Source of the DNA: Lysobacteraceae bacterium
GTDB lineage: Bacteria; Pseudomonadota; Gammaproteobacteria; Xanthomonadales; Wenzhouxiangellaceae
Direction: 5' to 3'
Length of the DNA: 16,708 nt
NCBI GenBank assembly: GCA_020201235.1
Contig: JAIVHD010000249.1
Coordinates: 1 to 16,708, forward strand
This document shows, in pieces, positions 6,851 through 16,708 of the stretch. The notes under the pieces were generated by a model. The model did no database searches and was not told where the DNA came from. It saw nothing but the letters and a program-made list of their open reading frames with translations. Both the position numbers and the translations under genes were made by a program. Position 1 is the stretch's first letter; every line of letters begins with the position of its first letter.

Positions 6851-7261
6851 TTAACCTTTAACCCAGTTATCGACACGCAAGCCGTCTACACGTCGAAACT
6901 CGCGACCGTTATTCGTAATCAGGGTCATGTCGGCGGCAAGCGCGTGCGCGGCAATCCAGAGGTCGTTATTGCCAATTGGCGTGCCGGACGATTCGAGGCT
7001 CCCACGAATTCCGGCATATCGGTCGCCTGCCCCCCGGGCCATCGGCATGACCGGCACCAGTGATGCAAACTCATCGAGCATCGCAAGCACCGCGCGGCGC
7101 CGCGTGCTCTTTTCGGCACCAAACCTGAGTTCGCCCCAGGTAATCACGGAAATTGCGGCCTCTCCAGGCTGCAGTGCAGCGAACTTTGCGGCAACCTCGG
7201 CGGGCTTTTCGCGCGCGATGTAGATGCAAATGTTTGTATCGAGCAGGTAACGTGCGGTCAT
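6851..7261 (-). CDS. vapC: VapC-like PIN-domain toxin
   Basis: Toxin of a type II toxin-antitoxin pair, predicted to be a magnesium-dependent ribonuclease. The 136-residue protein has the PIN acidic set: Asp8 (YLLDTN), Glu44 (TWGELRFGAE), Asp100 (NNDLWIAAHAL) and the TNNGREF segment at 116-122. The length and the N-terminal LLDTNICIYI pattern are typical of the VapC/FitB group. It lies 38 bp downstream of vapB on the same strand, in the usual antitoxin-first order. The catalytic residues look intact. The actual RNA target cannot be read from the sequence. Confidence 0.93.
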   Translation of the reverse strand: MTARYLLDTNICIYIAREKPAEVAAKFAALQPGEAAISVITWGELRFGAEKSTRRRAVLAMLDEFASLVPVMPMARGAGDRYAGIRGSLESSGTPIGNNDLWIAAHALAADMTLITNNGREFRRVDGLRVDNWVKG

Positions 7262-7780: not shown

Positions 7781-8693
7781 ATGGCGCGCATGGACAGCCA
7801 ACATTTCATCGGCCTGATCTCGGGCACCAGCATGGACGGCATCGACGCCGTTTTGGTCGACTTCGCCGGAAATCGCCCGGAACTGGTTGCCGCCAACACC
7901 TTCCAGTACCCGGACCCGCTGCGCGCCGCGCTGGATGAACTGCGCGCCGATCCGGACGCCTTTCCAGCCGCGCGCCTGGCCCGGCTGGATGCCGAAGTGG
8001 GGCAGGCGTTCGCCGACGCCGCGCAAGGGCTTCTAGACCGAGCCGCGATCGCAGCCGACAAGGTGTGCGCCATCGGCAGTCACGGCCAGACCGTGCTGCA
8101 CCGGCCCGACGACGCATTCGCCCACACGCTCCAGATCGGCGACCCGAGCCGGATCGCCGCGCATACCGGCATCGACGTGGTCGCCGACTTTCGCCGGGCC
8201 GACCTGGCCGCCGGCGGTCAGGGCGCACCGCTGGCACCGCTTGTCCACCAGGCCCTGCTGGCAAGCGCTGAAGAAAACCGGCTGGTCGTCAATCTGGGCG
8301 GCATCGCCAACGTCACGCTGCTGCCGGCTAAAGGCGGCGTCTCGGGCTTCGACACAGGTCCTGCCAACTGCTTCCTGGACGACTGGTACCGCGCCCATCA
8401 CGCCCCGGCTCGTGCCTTTCCAGCCCGATCGCATTCTGCTATGCGGCGGCGGCGTCGCCAACGGCGACCTGGTCGGGCGCATCCACAAGCGCATCCACAA
8501 TCGCCTCGGCAACATCCCGGTCCAGTCCACCGCGGAGCACGGCATCGACCCAGACTTTGTCGAGGCCACGCTAATCGCCTGGCTGGCGCGTGAATTCGTC
8601 TCCGGCCGCCCGATCGAGACCGCCGCCATCACCGGTGCCCGCCACCCCGTCCGCCTCGGCGCGCTGTGGCCGGCACCCGTCATCAGAACCTGA
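7781..8693 (+). pseudogene. anmK: Anhydro-N-acetylmuramic acid kinase AnmK, broken by internal gap and frameshift
   Basis: AnmK phosphorylates and opens 1,6-anhydro-MurNAc during murein recycling. The N-terminal part (ATG 7781 or 7790) has the nucleotide-binding LISGTSMDGIDAVLVDF, then IGSHGQTVLHRPD, VVADFRRADLAAGGQGAPL, VVNLGGIANVT and GFDTGPANCFLDDW. The catalytic Asp is about residue 188 counted from 7790. At about 8405-8420 the frame changes and the C-terminal part reads FQPDRILLCGGGVANGDL to the stop at 8693. In E. coli AnmK about 80 residues separate the equivalent points, and that block is absent here. The two parts sum to about 300 codons against a usual 370. The open frame extends upstream to 7718, but only through the MITE end, so the start there is not credible. 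As given, the sequence should not encode active enzyme; real deletion and assembly error are both possible. Confidence 0.88.
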
Positions 8694-8944
8694 AAGTCCG
8701 CTGAATTCACCACGCCGCCTGCTGCGACGCCGTCGGTCTAGCAACCGGCCCGCCCGCCGTGGCCCGGCCTTCCCCCTTTAGCTCGGCTTATTCGCCACCT
8801 GATCATCGCGAAGCGGCTCCAGACACCGTGGATACAGCGTCTTTGAGACCGGGCGCACCGGAAGCGTACTTGCTAGCAACCTGTCGGAAATGGGTGGGGT
8901 GAGGATGCCTGACCGAGCGAAACGCCGCAGATGCGGGGCATAGC

Positions 8945-9391
8945 CAGCGCAAGGATCGCTATCGCCAAGGTCATCCGAAAACAGTCAATAATCTGCGTGA
9001 ATCTGCGAAATCTGCGGTTCCATGGTTTTCCGCTCTCGCCAAGGCGCGAAGACGCCAAGAACACCAATGGAATGGGAAGAATGAGTGTGTCGAAAGGCTC
9101 AACAACGCGCACAACAAGCAGCTTCTTACGTACCTAACCCGAATTTTTCTCGCAAAGCCGCCAAGAACGCCAAGTTTATAAACGATAACAATGCCTTTAT
9201 GACTGAATCACCAGGCACTGTCTCGTACGTGCACGTCTGTCTTTCAAAATCGTTAATCCTTTGTTTTCTTGGCGTTCTTGGCGGCTTGGCGAGAGGAAAT
9301 ATCTTCTCTGTGCGCCCATAAATTCTGCGCACGAGCCGTAAAAGTGACCCCCCGGTATTCTGTAGGAGCCTGCTTGCAGGCGAACAAAAGC
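8945..9391 (+). repeat. Long dispersed repeat, copy 1 (~447 bp)
   Basis: This stretch recurs in direct orientation at 12902-13343 with only scattered differences, and its first ~90 bp also recur at 5090-5185. It is less GC-rich than the surrounding genes. It contains a 26-bp inverted repeat: CTCGCAAAGCCGCCAAGAAC... (9149-9174) pairs with 9268-9293 at 25 of 26 positions. Short frames inside it are repeat translations and not genes. Repeats of this CGCCAAGAACGCCAAG kind are widespread in bacterial genomes, but I know no accepted function. Confidence 0.85.
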
Positions 9392-9428
9392 TGAAGCCGT
9401 AGCCATTGGCCTGCAAGCAGGCTCCTAC
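9362..9428. repeat. GTAG-type REP hairpin, complete
   Basis: GTAGGAGCCTGCTTGCAGGC (9362-9381) and its exact reverse complement (9409-9428) form a perfect 20-bp stem, and each arm is itself a small palindrome around TGCTTGCA. The GTAG start followed by a short palindrome resembles the GTAG class of repetitive extragenic palindromes described in Stenotrophomonas (SMAG) and relatives, which are moved by RAYT transposases. No RAYT gene is in this window. Other copies are at 12752-12812 and 13315-13343. Confidence 0.8.
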
Positions 9429-9747
9429 AAAAGCCGCCTAACTCAGCAGAATTGCGATGATCAGCACGCCGCAGTAGGCAGCGTGTTGAATAAGGCGGGT
9501 TTAACCCGGGTTTAAAGATCGGCGCGTTTGCGCGTTAACCCGATATGGAAACTTCAACCCGCCTTTGTTGGCACACGCGCCGCGACCGGTTGTGCTAAAA
9601 CATCGTCTTAAGCAGAGCCGGCCCTTGGGCAGAAACAGTTCAACCCGCTGTTTCTTGATGATGCCGGTCACGTCCAATCCAGCATCAAGGGGGTATTTTT
9701 CTGGTCATGACGATCACTTCGCGTATTTGCCGTTGTTCGGAAAACCC

Positions 9748-10527
9748 ATGTCGGTGAACGACGGCGACGCTCAACTCAGCGACCTGTGGGCGCGCCGTGG
9801 GGATTTGTCCGAGCGCGAATGGGGTGAGCTTTATCAGCGGGTGATGGCGGCACTGGCCAGCGGGCGGAACGACTTTGAGCAATCGCTCGCCGGCGGCCAC
9901 CCGAAAAACGCCGAAGAGTTGCGCCATGCATTTTTCGTCCACAAGATTGCCACGCCCGCGCTGCTTCCGGGGTATGTGCCCCGTCCGCAACTGAGCGCAG
10001 GCGGGGTTCGAGCGTTCTATTTCAACTTTTTGCGCGATGAACACGATCGCCGGAAGCGGCGGCCCGAGCAGCAGCTTCCGCACGACAACGACGCCCGCAT
10101 GGCCGATCCGGCTGCCGAGCACGAGGCGTGCGAGGCTCGCGGACACCGACCGGGCTTTGACCGAGACGCGCTGGAAAAAAGCGCGCGCAAGTTTTTGCGC
10201 AAAAGCGAGTACTGGGTAGTGCTCTACCTCGCCCTGCATTTTTGCCATGGTCGGGAGCGTTTGCCGCTGTCGAAAATACAGTACCAGTACCAGATCCCGT
10301 CGTATCACTACAAGGCGAAATTGCTGGGTATCGCGCCGCCGCGCGGCGGCTATACCGGGTTCGCCGGGTTTTCCAAAACCATGCTCGGCCGATGGTTGGC
10401 CGACAACGCCATTCCGTTGCAAGAAGACAAGATGGATATCATCCGCAGCGCGTTCGACGTATTGTGTTTCGAGGCGTTCAAGGAATTTGACCGTCGCGAG
10501 CTGCAGCGCGAGGAGGAGCAGCAATGA
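9748..10527 (+). CDS. Hypothetical protein, possible sigma-factor-like/HTH protein
   Basis: I do not recognise a named family. From ATG 9748 the product is 259 residues; the frame stays open to 9565, with ATGs at 9658 and 9661, but the earlier part looks unlike coding sequence. Starting with MSVNDGDAQLSDLW, it is charged and has no membrane segment. The segment AGGVRAFYFNFLRDEHDRR resembles sigma region 2 helices ending in a DNA-contacting arginine patch. WVVLYLALHFCHGRERLPLS followed by KIQYQYQIPSYHYKAKLLGI resembles a sigma region 4-type helix-turn-helix. This is pattern similarity only. Its stop overlaps the next start (ATGA, 10524-10527), so it is translationally coupled to the unknown protein and, through that, to the TraG/VirD4-like ATPase. 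A regulatory or DNA-binding subunit of that operon is a reasonable guess. Confidence 0.7.
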   Translation: MSVNDGDAQLSDLWARRGDLSEREWGELYQRVMAALASGRNDFEQSLAGGHPKNAEELRHAFFVHKIATPALLPGYVPRPQLSAGGVRAFYFNFLRDEHDRRKRRPEQQLPHDNDARMADPAAEHEACEARGHRPGFDRDALEKSARKFLRKSEYWVVLYLALHFCHGRERLPLSKIQYQYQIPSYHYKAKLLGIAPPRGGYTGFAGFSKTMLGRWLADNAIPLQEDKMDIIRSAFDVLCFEAFKEFDRRELQREEEQQ

Positions 10528-11330
10528 TCATTCTGCAACCGTCGGTCGAGACCATTGAGCGCGGCTATGCCGCGTGGCTTGGCGAGTCGTCGGGCCCACA
10601 AACGCCAGAACCCGCGCCGGCCGATTCTGAACCGGCCGCGCACGGCGAGCCCCATGCACAAGCCGATGAATCCGGCCTTTCCGGCCCGCAAGCCGCTCAA
10701 GTGCCGCCGCCCGGTGGCTTTGCCATGCCTGATTTCGTTGCCGACGCTATCCGCCGCCAGGTCGCCGCGCGGCCTCAACGCTGCGTGCCCGAGGCCGGCG
10801 ACCTGGTGCTGATCTGGCCGCCCATTGAGACCACCGGCCAGCAGATGGATCCGCAACAGGCGGTCGTGGTTGCGCTCGACGAGCGCCGCGATTCGGTCTG
10901 GAGTGGCTGGCTGGTCGGCTCGCACGTCGACTATGCCGGCGACCGCGATCTGGTGCTCGAAGACAGCCTGATCGAAGACGGCAAGGACCCGGCGCCGATT
11001 GCCGGCATGGTGCTTTGCTGGGACCGCGTATCGCTCCGCCTGGCCGGCCAGGTGCCCGTCATACACCGCTTGAAGGCGCACGCGCTTGAGGCGATTCGCG
11101 AACTGGCCCGTCAGACCAGCCCGTCGCATGCCGAGATCGAGGCCGCACCCGGCCGGATGTGCCTGCGAGAAATCAACGACCACAGCTACATCACCGGTAC
11201 GCCGTACCTGCGCGACGACCCGCGTGCGCCGTATTTGCGCCTGGCGCGTGAGTTGGCCCGGCGCGTTTCGCAGCCCGAGTACGACGATCAGGGCCGCACG
11301 CGCGAGCCGGGCCGCGAGCCGGGCGCGTGA
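10524..11330 (+). CDS. Hypothetical protein, middle gene of the ATPase operon
   Basis: Family not recognised. The 268-residue product has no signal peptide or membrane helix. Residues about 23-67 are a Pro/Ala/Glu-rich linker. A compact globular region follows, with PEAGDLVLIWPP, AVVVALDERRDSVWSGWLVG, SHVDYAGDRDLVLED and IAGMVLCWDRVSLRLAG; its alternating strands and Trp residues suggest a small beta-rich domain. The C-terminal part is helical and Arg-rich (LKAHALEAIRELARQ, YLRLARELARRV). Both ends overlap neighbours: ATGA with the upstream gene and GTGA (11327-11330) with the ATPase gene. The three proteins are therefore probably made together in fixed ratio and may form one complex. Function is unknown. 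Confidence 0.8.
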   Translation: MIILQPSVETIERGYAAWLGESSGPQTPEPAPADSEPAAHGEPHAQADESGLSGPQAAQVPPPGGFAMPDFVADAIRRQVAARPQRCVPEAGDLVLIWPPIETTGQQMDPQQAVVVALDERRDSVWSGWLVGSHVDYAGDRDLVLEDSLIEDGKDPAPIAGMVLCWDRVSLRLAGQVPVIHRLKAHALEAIRELARQTSPSHAEIEAAPGRMCLREINDHSYITGTPYLRDDPRAPYLRLARELARRVSQPEYDDQGRTREPGREPGA

Positions 11331-12712
11331 GAGCCGTAGCGACCCGAAGCCGGGCATTGCCGGTAGCCCGGGAACTCGATGCCGAGGGTCTGTTGCTCGG
11401 CTGGTCGCTGGAAGCCGAAGGCCGATCCGCGCCCATGGGCTTTGCCAGCAATGCCGGCCGGCCCGATGACGACAGTCATCTAAAACCCATCCTGCACACC
11501 GGCGGCGGTCACTTGATGAGCTTCGCGCCGACCGGTGCGGGCAAGGGCATTGGCGCGGTCATTCCAGCGCTGCTGAGCTATCCAGGACCGGTCATCGTGG
11601 TCGACCCCAAAGGCGAAAACTACGCGGTCACCGCGCGTCGAAGGCGCGAAATGGGTCACGAGGTCATCTGCCTGGACCCATTCGATTCGATCCAGGACCA
11701 GCACTTTGATGCCTGCTTCAACCCGTTGGAACTGGTCGATCCGCGCTCGCCGAACGTCGCCGATGATGCAATGATGCTGGCCGAGGCGCTCAGCTACCAG
11801 ACGCTGATGGAAAACGACCCGTTCTGGCACGTGCGCGGCAAGCAACTGCTCGCAGGCCTCATTCTGCACGTCGCCGGCACCCAGCCGGGCCCGGAAAAAA
11901 CCCTGCAAGCGGTCAGCGAGTTGCTGTACAGCGGTCGCGACCAGCTTGCCGACCTGTGCCGTCTGATGGCCGGCTCGCGCCTGCCGCTGGTCCGCGCCAC
12001 ACCGTCGATCATCAACAATACCGCCGAGCGGATGGTCGACTCAATCCTGGCCATGAGCCAGACCAACCTCGGTTTTCTGGGCAGCGCCAGCGTCCAGCGC
12101 GCCACCAGCCGCTCCACCTTCGATCCGCGCGCCATCACCCGCGGAGACCCGGTCTCGGTCTACCTGATCATCCCGCCGGAAAAGCTCGAAAGCCATGCAC
12201 CGCTGTTGCGCATCTGGATCGCGGCGCTGATGAAGCTAATCCTCAACCGGCGCGGGCGGGTCGAACGAAACACGCTGTTCATCCTCGACGAAGCCGCTCA
12301 GCTTGGCCACTTTCCACCGTTGCGCCAGGCCATCACGCTGCTGCGCGGTTACGGCTTGCAGACCTGGAGCTTCTGGCAGGACCTCAGTCAACTCAAGCGC
12401 CTGTACAAGCACGACTGGGAAACCATGTACAACAACTGCCGCGCGCACCAGTACTTCGGCATTACCACGCCGTATCTGGCCGAACAGATCGCGCGGCTTA
12501 CCTTGCACGACGATCTGTTCGAAATTCTCGATCTGGATTCCGACGAAATGCTGCTCAGCCTCGCCGGCGACCGCCCCGTCATCGCCCAACGCCCCAACTA
12601 CCTCATCGACACGCCGTTCAAACACCAGTTCGACCCCAACCCCTACCACCAACCCAAAGACCTGGAACAAATCGCGCCACGACGCGGCCAACGCAACTAC
12701 CGCCGCGATTAA
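11327..12712 (+). CDS. TraG/VirD4-family ATPase without membrane anchor
   Basis: This belongs to the type IV coupling protein (TraG/VirD4) family of RecA/FtsK-like ATPases that pump DNA or protein substrates. Walker A is APTGAGKG (residues 67-74), followed by YPGPVIVVDPKGENYAVTAR. Walker B is LFILDEAA (317-324, Asp321-Glu322). The conserved LLRGYGLQTWSFWQDLSQLK, NNCRAHQYFG and LDLDSDEMLLSLAGDRPV complete the motor and TraM-recognition-like C-terminus. At 461 residues it lacks the two N-terminal transmembrane helices and the long cytoplasmic extension of classical VirD4, so it is predicted to be soluble. GTG 11327 overlaps the preceding stop. No relaxase, VirB component or other conjugation gene is in the window, so a role in standard conjugation is not supported. 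A diverged, broken paralog follows at 13447. Confidence 0.9.
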   Translation: MRAVATRSRALPVARELDAEGLLLGWSLEAEGRSAPMGFASNAGRPDDDSHLKPILHTGGGHLMSFAPTGAGKGIGAVIPALLSYPGPVIVVDPKGENYAVTARRRREMGHEVICLDPFDSIQDQHFDACFNPLELVDPRSPNVADDAMMLAEALSYQTLMENDPFWHVRGKQLLAGLILHVAGTQPGPEKTLQAVSELLYSGRDQLADLCRLMAGSRLPLVRATPSIINNTAERMVDSILAMSQTNLGFLGSASVQRATSRSTFDPRAITRGDPVSVYLIIPPEKLESHAPLLRIWIAALMKLILNRRGRVERNTLFILDEAAQLGHFPPLRQAITLLRGYGLQTWSFWQDLSQLKRLYKHDWETMYNNCRAHQYFGITTPYLAEQIARLTLHDDLFEILDLDSDEMLLSLAGDRPVIAQRPNYLIDTPFKHQFDPNPYHQPKDLEQIAPRRGQRNYRRD

Positions 12713-12751
12713 TCCCAATACTGATGGGTAAAGGATGAACTTTTCGCAGGG

Positions 12752-12812
12752 GCCTGCTTGCAGGCGAACAAAAGCGGAACCCGTATCCATTCGCCTGCAA
12801 GCAGGCTCCTAC
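12752..12812. repeat. GTAG-type REP hairpin, second copy
   Basis: GCCTGCTTGCAGGCGAA (12752-12768) pairs exactly with 12790-12806, and the right side runs on into GGCTCCTAC (12804-12812). The left arm has GCAGGGGCC where the family has GTAGGAGCC, so this copy is slightly eroded. It stands 40 bp after the ATPase stop and could end transcription or protect the mRNA end. The following bases (AAAAGCCGCCTAACTCA) also follow the 9362-9428 copy. The rest of the 12713-13446 gap is filled mainly by the long repeat. Confidence 0.75.
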
Positions 12813-12901
12813 AAAAGCCGCCTAACTCAAAAGAATGGCGATGATCACCACCCCACTGTCACGAAGTGCCGCCAGCCATTGAATCGAGGGCTTTTGTCCA
12901 G

Positions 12902-13343
12902 AGCGAGGATCGCTATCGACAAGGTCATTCGAACACAATCAATAATCTGCGTGAATCTGCGAAATCTGCGGTTCCATGGTTTTTTGCTCTCGCCAAGACG
13001 CGAAGACGCCAAGAACTCCAATGGAATGTGAAGAATGAGTGTGTCGAAAGGCTCAACAACGCGCACAACAATCAGCTTCTTACATACCGAACCCGAATTT
13101 TTCTCGCAAAGTCGCCAAGAACGCCAAGTTTATAAACGATAACAATGCCTTTATGACTGAAACACCAGGCACCGTCTCGTACGTGCACGTCTGTCTTTCA
13201 AAATCGTTAATCCTTTGTTTTCTTGGCGTTCTTGGCGGCTTGGCGAGAGGAAATATTTTCTCTGTGCGCCCATAAATTCTGCGCACTAGCCGTAAAAGTG
13301 AACCCCGGTATTCTGTAGGAGCCTGCTTGCAGGCGAACAAAAG
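12902..13343 (+). repeat. Long dispersed repeat, copy 2 (~442 bp)
   Basis: Direct repeat of 8945-9391, differing at scattered positions only, with the same internal inverted repeat (13103-13128 against 13222-13247). Upstream, AGCCATTGAATCGA (near 12873-12886) is shared with the copy near 5066 but not with copy 1. The two full copies enclose the three-gene operon 9748-12712, so recombination between them could excise or duplicate about 3.95 kb. Confidence 0.85.
13315..13343 (+). repeat. Half GTAG-type REP
   Basis: GTAGGAGCCTGCTTGCAGGC (13315-13334) plus GAACAAAAGC equals the left arm of the 9362 hairpin, but the complementary arm is missing and unrelated sequence follows (AGGGCCTGACAGCG). It marks the right boundary of the long repeat copy 2 and may be a recombination or deletion point. 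Confidence 0.7.
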
Positions 13344-13446
13344 CAGGGCCTGACAGCGTTGCAGTAGAGGGGTGGTAAACAAGCCCGGTTTAAAAAAATC
13401 ATGCCCGGCTCGTTTACCCATCACCTGCCCCGGAAAAGGAACCGCA

Positions 13447-14567
13447 ATGCCCAAGCTCAGAAACCCTGCAAACAGCCCGCTTGCCGGCACGCCGCCCGCG
13501 CAAGCCATCCTCGGATGGCAACTGGACTCGCGGAACAGCTTTGGCTTTCAAGGGGCAAAAGCCGTAAAAAGCCAAAGCCGCATTGATGTGATTGCCGATC
13601 GCGGCGAGGGCCATCTGATGACCATCGCGCCGACCGGTGCCGGCAAAGGCCGCTCGGTCATCATCCCGACGCTGCTTGCCTACCCCGGCCCGGTCATCGT
13701 CGTCGACCCCAAGGGCGAAAACTACCAGGTCACCGCCCGCCGCCGGATCGAAATGGGCCAGCAGGTCTACAAGCTCGACCCGTTCGACGTCACCGGCGGC
13801 GGCAGCCACTGCCTCAACCTCCTCGATACATTCAGTGCCGACGCGCCCGACGCCTATGACCAGGCCATCACGCTGGCCGAACTGATAGCCCCCGGCAGAA
13901 GCCTGCACGATCCGTTCTGGGACGAAAGCGCCAGGCTGCTGCTGGCCACGCTAATCCTGCACGTCGCCTCGGCCCGGCCGCCGGTGCTGCGCAACCTGGG
14001 CGAGGTGACCTACCTGATCAACCAGAGCACCGAAGACCTGGCCTTCACGATCAAAGAAATGCTCAAATCCAAACACGAGATGGTGCGCCGCATGGCCGCC
14101 GGATTCAGCGCCACCGAGGCCAAGGTCTGGGCCAGCATCCTGACCACCGCCAAGACCGCCACCGGGGTATTCAACGGCCCCAGCTTCGACCAAATCAGCG
14201 GCCGCACCGACATCCCGCTGGACGGCATCGTGCGCGGCGACCCGATCAGCATCTACCTGATTCTGCCGCCGGAAAAACTCGACAGCCACGGCCGGTTTCT
14301 GAGAATGTGGATCGGCTGCCTGATGGACCAAATCTGCAAACGCCGCCACCAGGTGCCGCAACCGACACTGTTCATCCTCGACGAAGCCGCCCAGCTCGGC
14401 ACGGCCAACAGGCAACAGTCGCCACCAAACCCGACTACCTAAACGACCCCCAGTTCAAGGGCCTATACGACAAAAACCCCTTCTACCAACCCATGCCCCA
14501 CCCGAGCCTGAGCCCAAACCACGACCAAACCTCCCAACCCCGTGACGGGTCCGTAGGGTGCCGTTGA
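13447..14567 (+). pseudogene. Second TraG/VirD4-like ATPase, broken by internal gap and frameshift
   Basis: Diverged paralog of the 11327-12712 ATPase. ATG 13447 follows AAAAGGA (13434-13440) by six bases, a good ribosome binding site; the open frame reaching back to 13372 runs through repeat sequence. Walker A is APTGAGKG (residues 61-68) and Walker B is LFILDEAAQLG (from residue 308). At about 14401-14405, right after AAQLGT, the frame changes and the protein resumes as GQQATVATKPDYLNDPQFKG, which aligns with GDRPVIAQRPNYLIDTPFKH of the first copy. By that alignment about 85 codons are missing, including the WSFWQDLSQL motif needed by the motor. Read in the original frame, translation stops at 14442. 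The displaced C-terminal frame ends at a TGA (14565-14567) lying inside a GTAG repeat. As given it is probably non-functional. No membrane helices are seen. Confidence 0.88.
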
Positions 14568-14700
14568 GCGAAGCAAAGCGCACCACTCAGAGCCCAAGCC
14601 CAAGGCCCGCGTAGGGTGCCGTTGAGCGAAGCGAAGCGCACCAGTCAGAGCCCAAGTCCAAGGCCCACGTAGGGTGCCGTTGAGCGCAGCGAAGCGCACC
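14553..14700 (+). repeat. Three tandem GTAG repeats, 58-bp period
   Basis: Three 32-bp units starting GTAGGGTGCCGTTGAGCG and ending GCGCACC lie at 14553-14584, 14611-14642 and 14669-14700. The 26-bp spacers between them are nearly identical to each other (AGAGCCCAAGCCCAAGGCCC-like), so the true unit is 58 bp. Each 32-mer can fold through GGTGC/GCACC. Further copies are at 15214 (truncated) and 16625. This is a second GTAG-starting repeat type, distinct from the GTAGGAGCC hairpins. Confidence 0.88.
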
Positions 14701-14766
14701 GCCTGAACCGACCACCGGAAAACGGAAACCCGAAACCGTCAAATCAAAACCACCCAGGAGCCAAAA

Positions 14767-15102
14767 ATGAACCAACCCAAAAACACCACCAACCACGAAT
14801 CCGCCCCCACCTCCCCCGAACCCGGCACGGATGCAATGACAGACTTCCTCACCTTCCGAAAATTCGCCACTCCAACGCTGGTCCAGATCGTCTTCTGGAC
14901 CGGCACCCTGGTCTTCCTGATCTGGGGCGGCGCCTTGATTTCCGAGGCCAGCAACCGCTACGGCACCAACGAAATCATGGTCTGGACCGGCATCGCCATC
15001 ATGTTCATCGGCCCGGCGGTGCTGCGCATCGCCGCCGAACTGGTCATGATCGTCTTCCGCATTCACGACCAACTCGGCCTGCTCGCCAAGGCCGGCGATT
15101 GA
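14767..15102 (+). CDS. DUF4282 family small membrane protein
   Basis: A 111-residue protein with a hydrophilic, Thr/Pro-rich N-terminus (1-24), then TFRKFATPTLVQIVFW, two membrane segments (about 37-58 and 70-92) and the family-like end LRIAAELVMIVFRIHDQL. This layout (FRxxxTP start, two helices, RIxxELxxVxFRIHD end) matches DUF4282, whose function is unknown. AGGAG (14755-14759) sits seven bases before the ATG; ATG 14836 (Met24) is a possible alternative. The gene stands alone between GTAG-repeat clusters, so its neighbours give little functional information. Confidence 0.87.
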   Translation: MNQPKNTTNHESAPTSPEPGTDAMTDFLTFRKFATPTLVQIVFWTGTLVFLIWGGALISEASNRYGTNEIMVWTGIAIMFIGPAVLRIAAELVMIVFRIHDQLGLLAKAGD

Positions 15103-15171: not shown

Positions 15172-15213
15172 CGGCCTCAACCACCCGCCGAACCCGGCAG
15201 GCTCCTAGCCCGC

Positions 15214-15239
15214 GTAGGGTGCCGTTGAGCGCAGCGAAG
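15214..15239 (+). repeat. Truncated GTAG repeat
   Basis: GTAGGGTGCCGTTGAGCGCA and a few further bases match the 14669 unit, but the 3' end (GCGCACC) is replaced by GAAGAGAACATCGG, which reads straight into the next coding region. The TAG at 15215-15217 is the in-frame stop limiting that reading frame upstream. This looks like a breakpoint inside the repeat. Confidence 0.75.
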
Positions 15240-15361: not shown

Positions 15362-16330
15362 ATGACAGTGCGCTACATCGACGGCGTGCAGGTCATCGAA
15401 AAGGTGAAACCCGAAGGGCACGAGGAACGTGTCTTCGGCGTTTCGCGCGCCACCAAGCACGGTGAAGGGTGGCGCATCTCACTGGAACTCGAAAGCACGC
15501 CCTGGCGCTACACCGGCGAGCCGCTAAGTTCCTTTGGAAGCGATTATGTGATCGCCGGTACCGATCAAGAAGCCGCCCTGTTGGCCAGAGTGCAAAAGGA
15601 ATGGGAAGAAGAGCAGCAGCGCCTTGCGCTGGAAGCACAGCGTGAAAGGGAAGAAGTCGCCCGCAAGAACGAGTCGATCCTCGAACTGCTCGGAACCGGC
15701 TTCGCCGAAATCGAAGCCGAGCAGAACGGCTCCTTCGTCAACGCGATTGCCGAATACACGGCGCCGGATCAGATCGATCGCAGATTCGACTTCCCGATCG
15801 TATTCGATGGCACCGTCTACACCTACGACGGCATCGTGCGCGACGGCATCATGATGCTGGTTGATCCCGACGCTGGCTGCCAGGTCCTGCTTGCGCTCAG
15901 AGACGACGGCGAACAGCTTCAAGGCGTGTCGAAATGCTCGCTGATGCCCGGCGCCGTTCAGATGCTGCCGACGACTCAGGAAGCGCTGGACGACAAATAT
16001 CGTGAGGCCGACGGCCAACTGATGGCCTTCTTCCAACAAACCATCTCCGGCAACCCGCTTACATATCACGAGCGCAACCTGACTTTTGGTGGTGGTGACA
16101 CTCTTGCCGCGTCGATCAAGAAAATTGACGGTAAGAGCATCCACATCGACTTCACCCAATACAACCGCAGCGCCGGCTCGGCCGTCTGGTACGTCAAGTA
16201 CGGTAGGGTCAGAAGCCGCACAACCAGCAGCTTCTGGTACTTCCTGGAATACAAGTCGCCGGAAATCCTGGAGGGTCGCAAATACGACCGGCCAAATCGG
16301 CCGATCGGGCTGACGCTGTCCAGAGGCTGA
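15362..16330 (+). CDS. Hypothetical coiled-coil protein, probably truncated at its 5' end
   Basis: Family not recognised. From ATG 15362 the product is 322 residues, without signal peptide or membrane helix. Residues about 67-122 are rich in Glu/Gln/Ala (LLARVQKEWEEEQQRLALEA) and likely form a coiled coil. The rest looks globular, with YTAPDQIDRRFDFPIVFDG, GIVRDGIMMLVDPDAG and an aromatic C-terminal part (SAVWYVKYGRVRS, SFWYFLEYKS). The same frame is open back to 15218 and reads protein-like (NIGTKVEPIIAARFEFETEL, then KQDLYQPTNSSKPLDSQGG) with no ATG, GTG or TTG before 15362. It meets a truncated GTAG repeat at 15214-15239. The original N-terminus is therefore probably lost, and there is no clear ribosome binding site at 15362. 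A long - strand frame across the same bases is judged a shadow. Confidence 0.7.
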   Translation: MTVRYIDGVQVIEKVKPEGHEERVFGVSRATKHGEGWRISLELESTPWRYTGEPLSSFGSDYVIAGTDQEAALLARVQKEWEEEQQRLALEAQREREEVARKNESILELLGTGFAEIEAEQNGSFVNAIAEYTAPDQIDRRFDFPIVFDGTVYTYDGIVRDGIMMLVDPDAGCQVLLALRDDGEQLQGVSKCSLMPGAVQMLPTTQEALDDKYREADGQLMAFFQQTISGNPLTYHERNLTFGGGDTLAASIKKIDGKSIHIDFTQYNRSAGSAVWYVKYGRVRSRTTSSFWYFLEYKSPEILEGRKYDRPNRPIGLTLSRG

Positions 16331-16624
16331 ACCAGCGCCGCCGTTGCCCGGGAACATGACCTGCATCAACGCAGCAGCAACCTCGCCTTCCAGCCACATG
16401 CGGTCGCTGGCACCAACCAGCGCCCGTCCAAATCGGCCGAATGAGCCGAATATCTTCAAAATTCCGCCAGACCATTCGATAACCCATAAACCGGATCAAC
16501 ACACAGGGCCCGCAAATGAACGAGTTTCCCAGCAGTCGCGCCAAGTCACCAAACGTTGGCAACCCAAGGACCCGGCCATGCGCCGGAACCAAACCCGGGG
16601 CCCCTCGAAATCACCATGGCCCGC
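16331..16624. other. Gene-free stretch, possible coding remnant on the - strand
   Basis: No complete gene is convincing here. On the - strand, bases about 16459-16350 read smoothly as GRALVGASDRMWLEGEVAAA and then LMQVMFPGNG, which looks like a real protein fragment, but it has no recognisable family and runs into the antisense of the previous gene. The remainder up to the GTAG repeat shows nothing assignable. Confidence 0.3.
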
Positions 16625-16656
16625 GTAGGGTGCCGTTGAGCGAAGCGAGGCGCACC
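16625..16656 (+). repeat. GTAG repeat, isolated complete copy
   Basis: A 32-bp unit matching those at 14553-14700 (GTAGGGTGCCGTTGAGCGAA ... GCGCACC). Its downstream flank, CGCCTGAACC, is also shared with the copy ending at 14700, so repeat and flank were copied together. Confidence 0.85.
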
Positions 16657-16666
16657 GCCTGAACCA

Positions 16667-16708
16667 ACCACCGACCACCGACCACCGACCACCGACCACC
16701 GACCACCG
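16667..16708 (+). repeat. 7-bp tandem repeat at the window end
   Basis: ACCACCG is repeated about six times without interruption up to the last base. The related ACCGACCACCGG follows the 14700 repeat once, so this looks like local slippage expansion of that flank. The true length is unknown because the window ends inside it. Confidence 0.9.

Follow-up and report, generated by a model that had tools for sequence, protein, structure and literature searches.

Three coupled genes of a Wenzhouxiangellaceae bacterium join a predicted sigma-factor-like/MazF-fold pair to a soluble VirD4-like ATPase: a candidate immune switch

In the CalpL-CalpT-CalpS system, the activated protease CalpL cuts the anti-sigma protein CalpT and frees the extracytoplasmic function (ECF) sigma factor CalpS (passages of PMC11417357, PMC11229360 and PMC12751052). 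In type III-E (Cas7-11) systems the CHAT protease Csx29 cuts Csx30, an inhibitor of CASP-sigma (passages of PMC10028731), and the neighbourhoods of EACC2-caspases hold an ECF sigma factor, a TPR protein and a changing set of sensory domains, CHASE2 and trypsin among them (passages of PMC8195603). Here we analyse a contig of 16,708 nucleotides from a Lysobacteraceae bacterium (JAIVHD010000249.1; "the window"), from an assembly in 439 contigs that is 83% complete (GCA_020201235.1; G000). The window carries three coupled genes: g1, g2 and g3, the last encoding a soluble VirD4-like ATPase that we call T4CP-A. We find this gene set to be real and rare, read it as a novel form of sigma/anti-sigma signalling module, and conclude that it is no conjugation system.

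The coupled genes and their predicted folds

The trio and the motifs of its ATPase lie as follows.

9748..10527, + strand: g1, predicted ECF-sigma-like protein, 259 residues (predicted fold)
10524..11330, + strand: g2, predicted MazF-fold protein, 268 residues, likely an anti-sigma protein or adaptor (predicted fold)
11327..12712, + strand: g3, T4CP-A, soluble VirD4/TraG-family ATPase, 461 residues (PF02534 at E 9.2e-55, TraG-D_C, TrwB_AAD_bind, hydropathy, tree)
11525..11548, + strand: Walker A of T4CP-A, APTGAGKG, at residue 67
12275..12295, + strand: Walker B of T4CP-A, LFILDEA (motif)

As a sequence-only reading of this DNA had claimed, consecutive genes overlap by four bases, ATGA (10524-10527) between g1 and g2 and GTGA (11327-11330) between g2 and g3. 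The ATG at 9748 is the start of g1, the open frame of which reaches back to a TTG at 9565. Intact trios are also present in G004 (Wenzhouxiangella sp. XN79A), again with four-base overlaps at both junctions, and in G015 (W. marina, protein P0035), with a four-base overlap at g1/g2 and a short gap at g2/g3. Because these overlaps recur and relatives of g1 and g2 adjoin in 18 of 20 readable loci, the arrangement is beyond chance.

Among the 50 structural matches listed for the predicted structure of g1, the top 22 are sigma factors or chains of initiation complexes, and g1 is predicted to take an ECF-sigma fold. All 50 of the matches listed for g2 are MazF/Kid-type toxins, and a MazF fold is predicted for it. 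The models thus bear out earlier suggestions that g1 has sigma/helix-turn-helix-like segments and that g2 is rich in beta strands. In the databases searched, such pairs are either nameless or "hypothetical". MazF/PemK toxins have a catalytic Arg in an Arg-Pro motif. In the weak register given by hhalign this Arg was not found in g2, where Gln stands at the aligned position, and in the same register the position is Q, H, L, Y or N in 30 of 34 rows (the other four are unlisted). We take g2 as a likely anti-sigma protein that would sequester g1 because of its analogy with CalpT, cut by CalpL, and Csx30, cut by Csx29.

A conserved pair with an exchangeable third gene

Twenty-one g1 loci were examined, of which L067, whose contig stops after g1, stands outside the 20 readable ones; in the 18 loci mentioned above g2 comes after g1. 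A third gene can be read in 17 loci, L067, L027 (contig stops in g2) and two Caballeronia loci being excluded, and L042, the same locus as L029, shares one count with it. That gene encodes a protease in 13 of the 17: a CHAT-type protein in eight (L029, L036, L043, L044, L045, L065, L066 and L069), a caspase in three (L030, L062, L064) and trypsin in two (L031, which has CHAT too, and L063), with CHASE2 next in both. The CHAT match exceeds the Pfam cut-off in L043 and falls below it in L029, L036 and L044; L045, L065, L066 and L069 were tied to the others by hidden Markov model (HMM) and BLAST comparison, their His/Cys motifs being judged by eye. Three loci, the window, G004 and G015, all of the Wenzhouxiangella family, carry the VirD4-like ATPase as third gene. 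In L068 the third gene encodes a 132-residue protein, and a trypsin-type gene is fifth after g2. Since most relatives encode a protease in third place, conservation covers g1 and g2 and not the trio of the sequence-only reading; the ATPase version is accompanied by a second VirD4-like paralogue, T4CP-B. Eight further contigs are apparently common to the match lists of g1 and g2, which suggests adjacency there as well. A similar-looking small protein of about 134-148 residues recurs beside CHAT-type loci (L029:14241-14660, L043:5328-5729, L044:5886-6329, L045:2867-3292, L065:8916-9317); two of these were scanned and gave no Pfam match.

The distribution is sporadic. Searching 151 related genomes with T4CP-A gave some match in 29, close matches (at least 658 bits) being confined to G000, G004 and G015, with the next genome at 158 bits; T4CP-B has copies in the same three (234-374 bits). 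g1 is found in these three among 43 family genomes, so that within the family g1, T4CP-A and T4CP-B co-occur, and the lack of co-occurrence that would have refuted the sequence-only reading is not seen there. A set of 398 genomes taken from the order has g1 in at least three, namely the same ones. Among the genomes searched with g1 profiles, relatives are present in 5 of 40 in one order, at least 12 of 395 in one family and at least 2 of 369 in the class, G000 being one; the counts over the 369, the 395 and the order's 398 genomes are lower bounds, with at most 6-7 candidates scored per genome. Matches in G631, G884, two further G672 fragments and one Paraburkholderia plasmid lie outside the locus counts. 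L027, another gammaproteobacterial contig, holds g1, a partial g2 at the contig end and T4CP-B. Distant g1 relatives occur on three plasmid records, two of which were examined. A phage home for g1 was sought in IMG/VR, where 33 pattern matches yielded none that was confirmed and a later scan gave no pattern match.

T4CP-A belongs to the VirD4/TraG family, and its Walker motifs are intact in all three genomes. Its best 19-residue hydropathy mean ahead of Walker A is 0.70, that is, there is no N-terminal hydrophobic stretch; of the 17 VirD4-type proteins used for comparison, 15 have 2.13-3.27 on the same measure and the remaining two 0.23 and 0.38. The description of g3 as a TraG/VirD4 ATPase with intact Walker A and B and no N-terminal membrane helices is thereby confirmed. 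In a phylogenetic tree, one branch (99/97) groups T4CP-A (three rows), T4CP-B (four rows) and relatives from Sinorhizobium and a Runella plasmid, and the 17 other VirD4-type proteins, including the sampled conjugative ones, fall across it. N-terminal hydropathy is at most 0.70 in all nine rows of this soluble clade, two of the 17 outside being also low. Three of 17 relatives' loci are absent from the tree, rel_L007 and rel_L009 (no open reading frame (ORF) by the motif filter) and rel_L013 (no Walker A), and the start codons of the remaining relatives are guessed. Against PDB sequences, T4CP-A matched one coupling ATPase, Cag5; against phage records there were 10 weak matches, the best of 33% identity over 84%. 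A PADLOC scan of four proteins gave a weak match of T4CP-A to mad8 of MADS (E 9.8e-7, 26.6 bits) and no match to any further MADS model. VirB4 was found in none of four T4CP-type genomes, among them the 83%-complete G000, and a Pfam scan of 13 ORFs of the window showed no relaxase.

The neighbours of these ATPases are often of immune type. In G004 the trio and T4CP-B are separated by a type III CRISPR locus (RAMP, Cas10, RT-Cas1 and a TM-CARF protein); no type III CRISPR was seen in the window or in the G015 stretch read. In G015 the interval between trio and T4CP-B holds a protein of 1150 residues whose matches to AAA_16 and NB-ARC are below threshold. Three more close T4CP-A relatives occur among 398 genomes of the phylum (L133, L134, L135). 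In L135 a Card1/CARF-PDDEXK nuclease gene lies directly downstream of the ATPase and a DUF4062 protein is close by; L134 has an AAA_16 ATPase gene in the neighbourhood. The Sinorhizobium ATPase (L119) is close to a TPR/AAA protein and to a patatin gene matching PADLOC effector phospholipases, and its partner protein was matched on three plasmid records, all Sinorhizobium. Caspase-family genes are annotated close to the Runella plasmid ATPase. Of the defence and mobility roles suggested earlier, defence gains from these neighbours and from the protease-bearing relatives, and mobility loses, with neither VirB4 nor a relaxase found in the searches above.

Several side observations concern these loci. 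The XN79A type III locus encodes a single protein that combines reverse transcriptase and Cas1 domains and also matches Cas6 weakly (L025:12798-15734). The DUF4062 protein of L135 (12080-15073, - strand) has a C-terminal biotin/lipoyl domain, an odd pairing. L119, L133 and L134 are alphaproteobacterial, and the L133 pair sits between dnaA-looking and enoyl-CoA hydratase-looking genes.

Other features of the window, of which the broken T4CP-B and the two genes shared with G015 went unmentioned in the sequence-only reading, are as follows.

8944..9391, + strand: left flanking direct repeat (repeat comparison)
12898..13344, + strand: right flanking direct repeat (repeat comparison)
13372..14442, + strand: T4CP-B, second VirD4-like ATPase gene, broken (alignment of intact relatives)
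14767..15102, + strand: DUF4282 membrane protein, 49% identity over 97 residues to a protein beside the G015 trio
15362..16330, + strand: homologue of a putative lipoprotein beside the G015 trio, 59% over 322 residues

The direct repeats (94% for 8944-9243 against 12898-13197; also 9350-9391 against 13303-13344) agree with the claim of a repeat-bracketed block. Intact relatives of T4CP-B align to 14400-14403, after which 75-89 residues are gone; a C-terminal remnant lies in another frame at 14376-14531. The N-terminal part of the lipoprotein homologue lies outside any open frame in the window. REP-like inverted repeats around TAGGAGCCTGCTTGCAGGCGAA stand either side of the trio (9358-9432, 12742-12816, 13311-13337), and short interspersed repeats that share a GCCCGCGTAGGGTGCCGTTGAGCG core, some of them 58 nt apart, are found at 14542-14717, 15208-15239 and 16614-16673. 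A VapC-type PIN-domain protein (PF01850, E 3.3e-18) adjoins the block at 6851-7261 (- strand). A nadB-like frame is split over two frames (1256-2546), with FAD_binding_2 only in the first piece, and anmK is split at 7805-8678, relatives matching its two pieces, 7805-8413 and 8193-8678, in different frames; the contig may therefore contain decay or assembly errors.

A possible sigma-release switch and its rivals

We tentatively propose, with somewhat less than even confidence, that the trio serves immunity as a sigma/anti-sigma switch in which a VirD4-like motor occupies the position of the protease. At rest g2 would sequester the sigma-like g1; T4CP-A, free of a membrane anchor, would sense an invader and then pull g2 and g1 apart, and the freed g1 would turn on response genes. 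The ATPase likely flips the switch because relatives have a protease gene in its place, and its target, either g2 or the complex of g2 with g1, may be pulled where a protease would cut. Invading nucleic acid could be the trigger, or else a second messenger of CRISPR type, and T4CP-B might work jointly with T4CP-A. Where a protease follows the sigma-like/MazF-like pair, the arrangement fits the release logic of CalpL and Csx29. On the unlikely side is a fuller version, in which T4CP-A and T4CP-B, as a secretion-type VirD4 motor put to new use, would form a cytosolic immune switch, with nucleic acid sensed, ATP-driven stripping of the anti-sigma protein and a protease-free transcriptional defence; its further part, that the trio variant is a motor-gated counterpart to CRISPR-linked protease/sigma cascades, is equally doubtful.

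Several results weigh against an immune switch of this kind. In the Pfam scan g1 matched neither Sigma70 region 2 nor region 4 and g2 did not match PF02452 (MazF/PemK), and the HMM-HMM comparison advised in the sequence-only reading, run with hhalign, gave weak MazF support for g2 and none of sigma type for g1; both folds came from the structure models. Profiles of g1 and g2, and one distant g2 relative, matched PDB sequences at chance level. Two Caballeronia plasmids carry g1 without g2, L133 has no immune-type neighbour of its ATPase, and in L133, L134 and the Sinorhizobium locus the upstream protein is another one, unrecognised by the g1 and g2 profiles. The strongest of these points are that the folds lack confirmation at the sequence level, that some g1 genes stand without g2, and that some ATPase relatives have another partner or no immune neighbour.

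The main rival, which we hold unlikely, makes the ATPases the weapon: T4CP-A and T4CP-B would be soluble translocases directed at DNA or protein of the invader, and the role of g1-g2 would be only to switch the locus on. VirD4 proteins are indeed translocases of DNA or protein, and the soluble relatives with other partners do without g1-g2; yet a protease fills the same slot in 13 of 17 loci, and the known proteases that correspond to it target the anti-sigma protein. Most sigma/anti-sigma pairs act in stress responses, and it is conceivable, though less probable again, that the pair is a non-immune switch for envelope or growth stress whose CRISPR and caspase neighbours merely share its islands. 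Genes for putative lipoproteins, DUF4282 and CHASE2 adjoin several loci, and L133 would fit, but the sporadic distribution (3 of 43) and the repeated presence of CRISPR, Card1, patatin and caspase neighbours speak against such a role. A degenerating conjugative or integrative element, of which the coupling proteins survive, is an improbable explanation of the locus: the VirD4 family membership, the direct repeats at the flanks, the broken T4CP-B and chromosomal neighbours that differ between G000/G004 and G015 would suit it, whereas VirB4 is missing from all four genomes, the soluble ATPases stand apart from the sampled conjugative ones, the motifs are intact in three genomes and nothing was confirmed for the g1 profile in IMG/VR.

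If the proposed switch is true, VirD4, a DNA-transfer motor, gains a job in immunity, and the motors of conjugation and secretion are joined to sigma release as an immune output, hitherto described with proteases. The analysis also brings to light a family in which a sigma-like/MazF-like pair has a third gene that varies (CHAT, caspase, trypsin or VirD4-like ATPase), and the link from infection sensing to transcription becomes testable in a three-gene operon.

Comparison with described systems

No paper on a VirD4-like ATPase with a sigma/MazF-like pair was found in the literature queries, one of which was swamped by a common word. T4CP-A shares with the VirD4/TraG coupling proteins its ATPase family, PF02534 and the Walker motifs, but differs in having no N-terminal hydrophobic segment, no VirB4 and a separate branch. 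The likeness to MADS is the weak mad8 match, the difference that no other MADS model was matched. EACC2-caspases resemble the g1-g2 relatives in the company of a caspase with an ECF sigma factor, CHASE2 and trypsin, whereas neither a MazF-like protein nor VirD4 occurs once in the text of PMC8195603.

The CalpL-CalpT-CalpS system is like the trio in combining a sigma-like protein, a partner and a third actor at a single locus, and CalpT is said to be a MazF homologue. The Csx29-Csx30-CASP-sigma system likewise has a sigma factor held by an inhibitor, and CHAT fills the third slot in eight g1-g2 relatives. In the Pfam scan, however, the 13 window ORFs had no match to CHAT, Lon or SAVED, and passages of PMC10028731 do not mention a MazF likeness of Csx30, whereas g2 models as MazF. 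CalpL-CalpT-CalpS is linked to type III CRISPR; a locus of this type is present in G004, and none was seen in the window or in the G015 stretch read. Where that system has a Lon-SAVED protease, the third gene of the trio encodes a VirD4-like ATPase.
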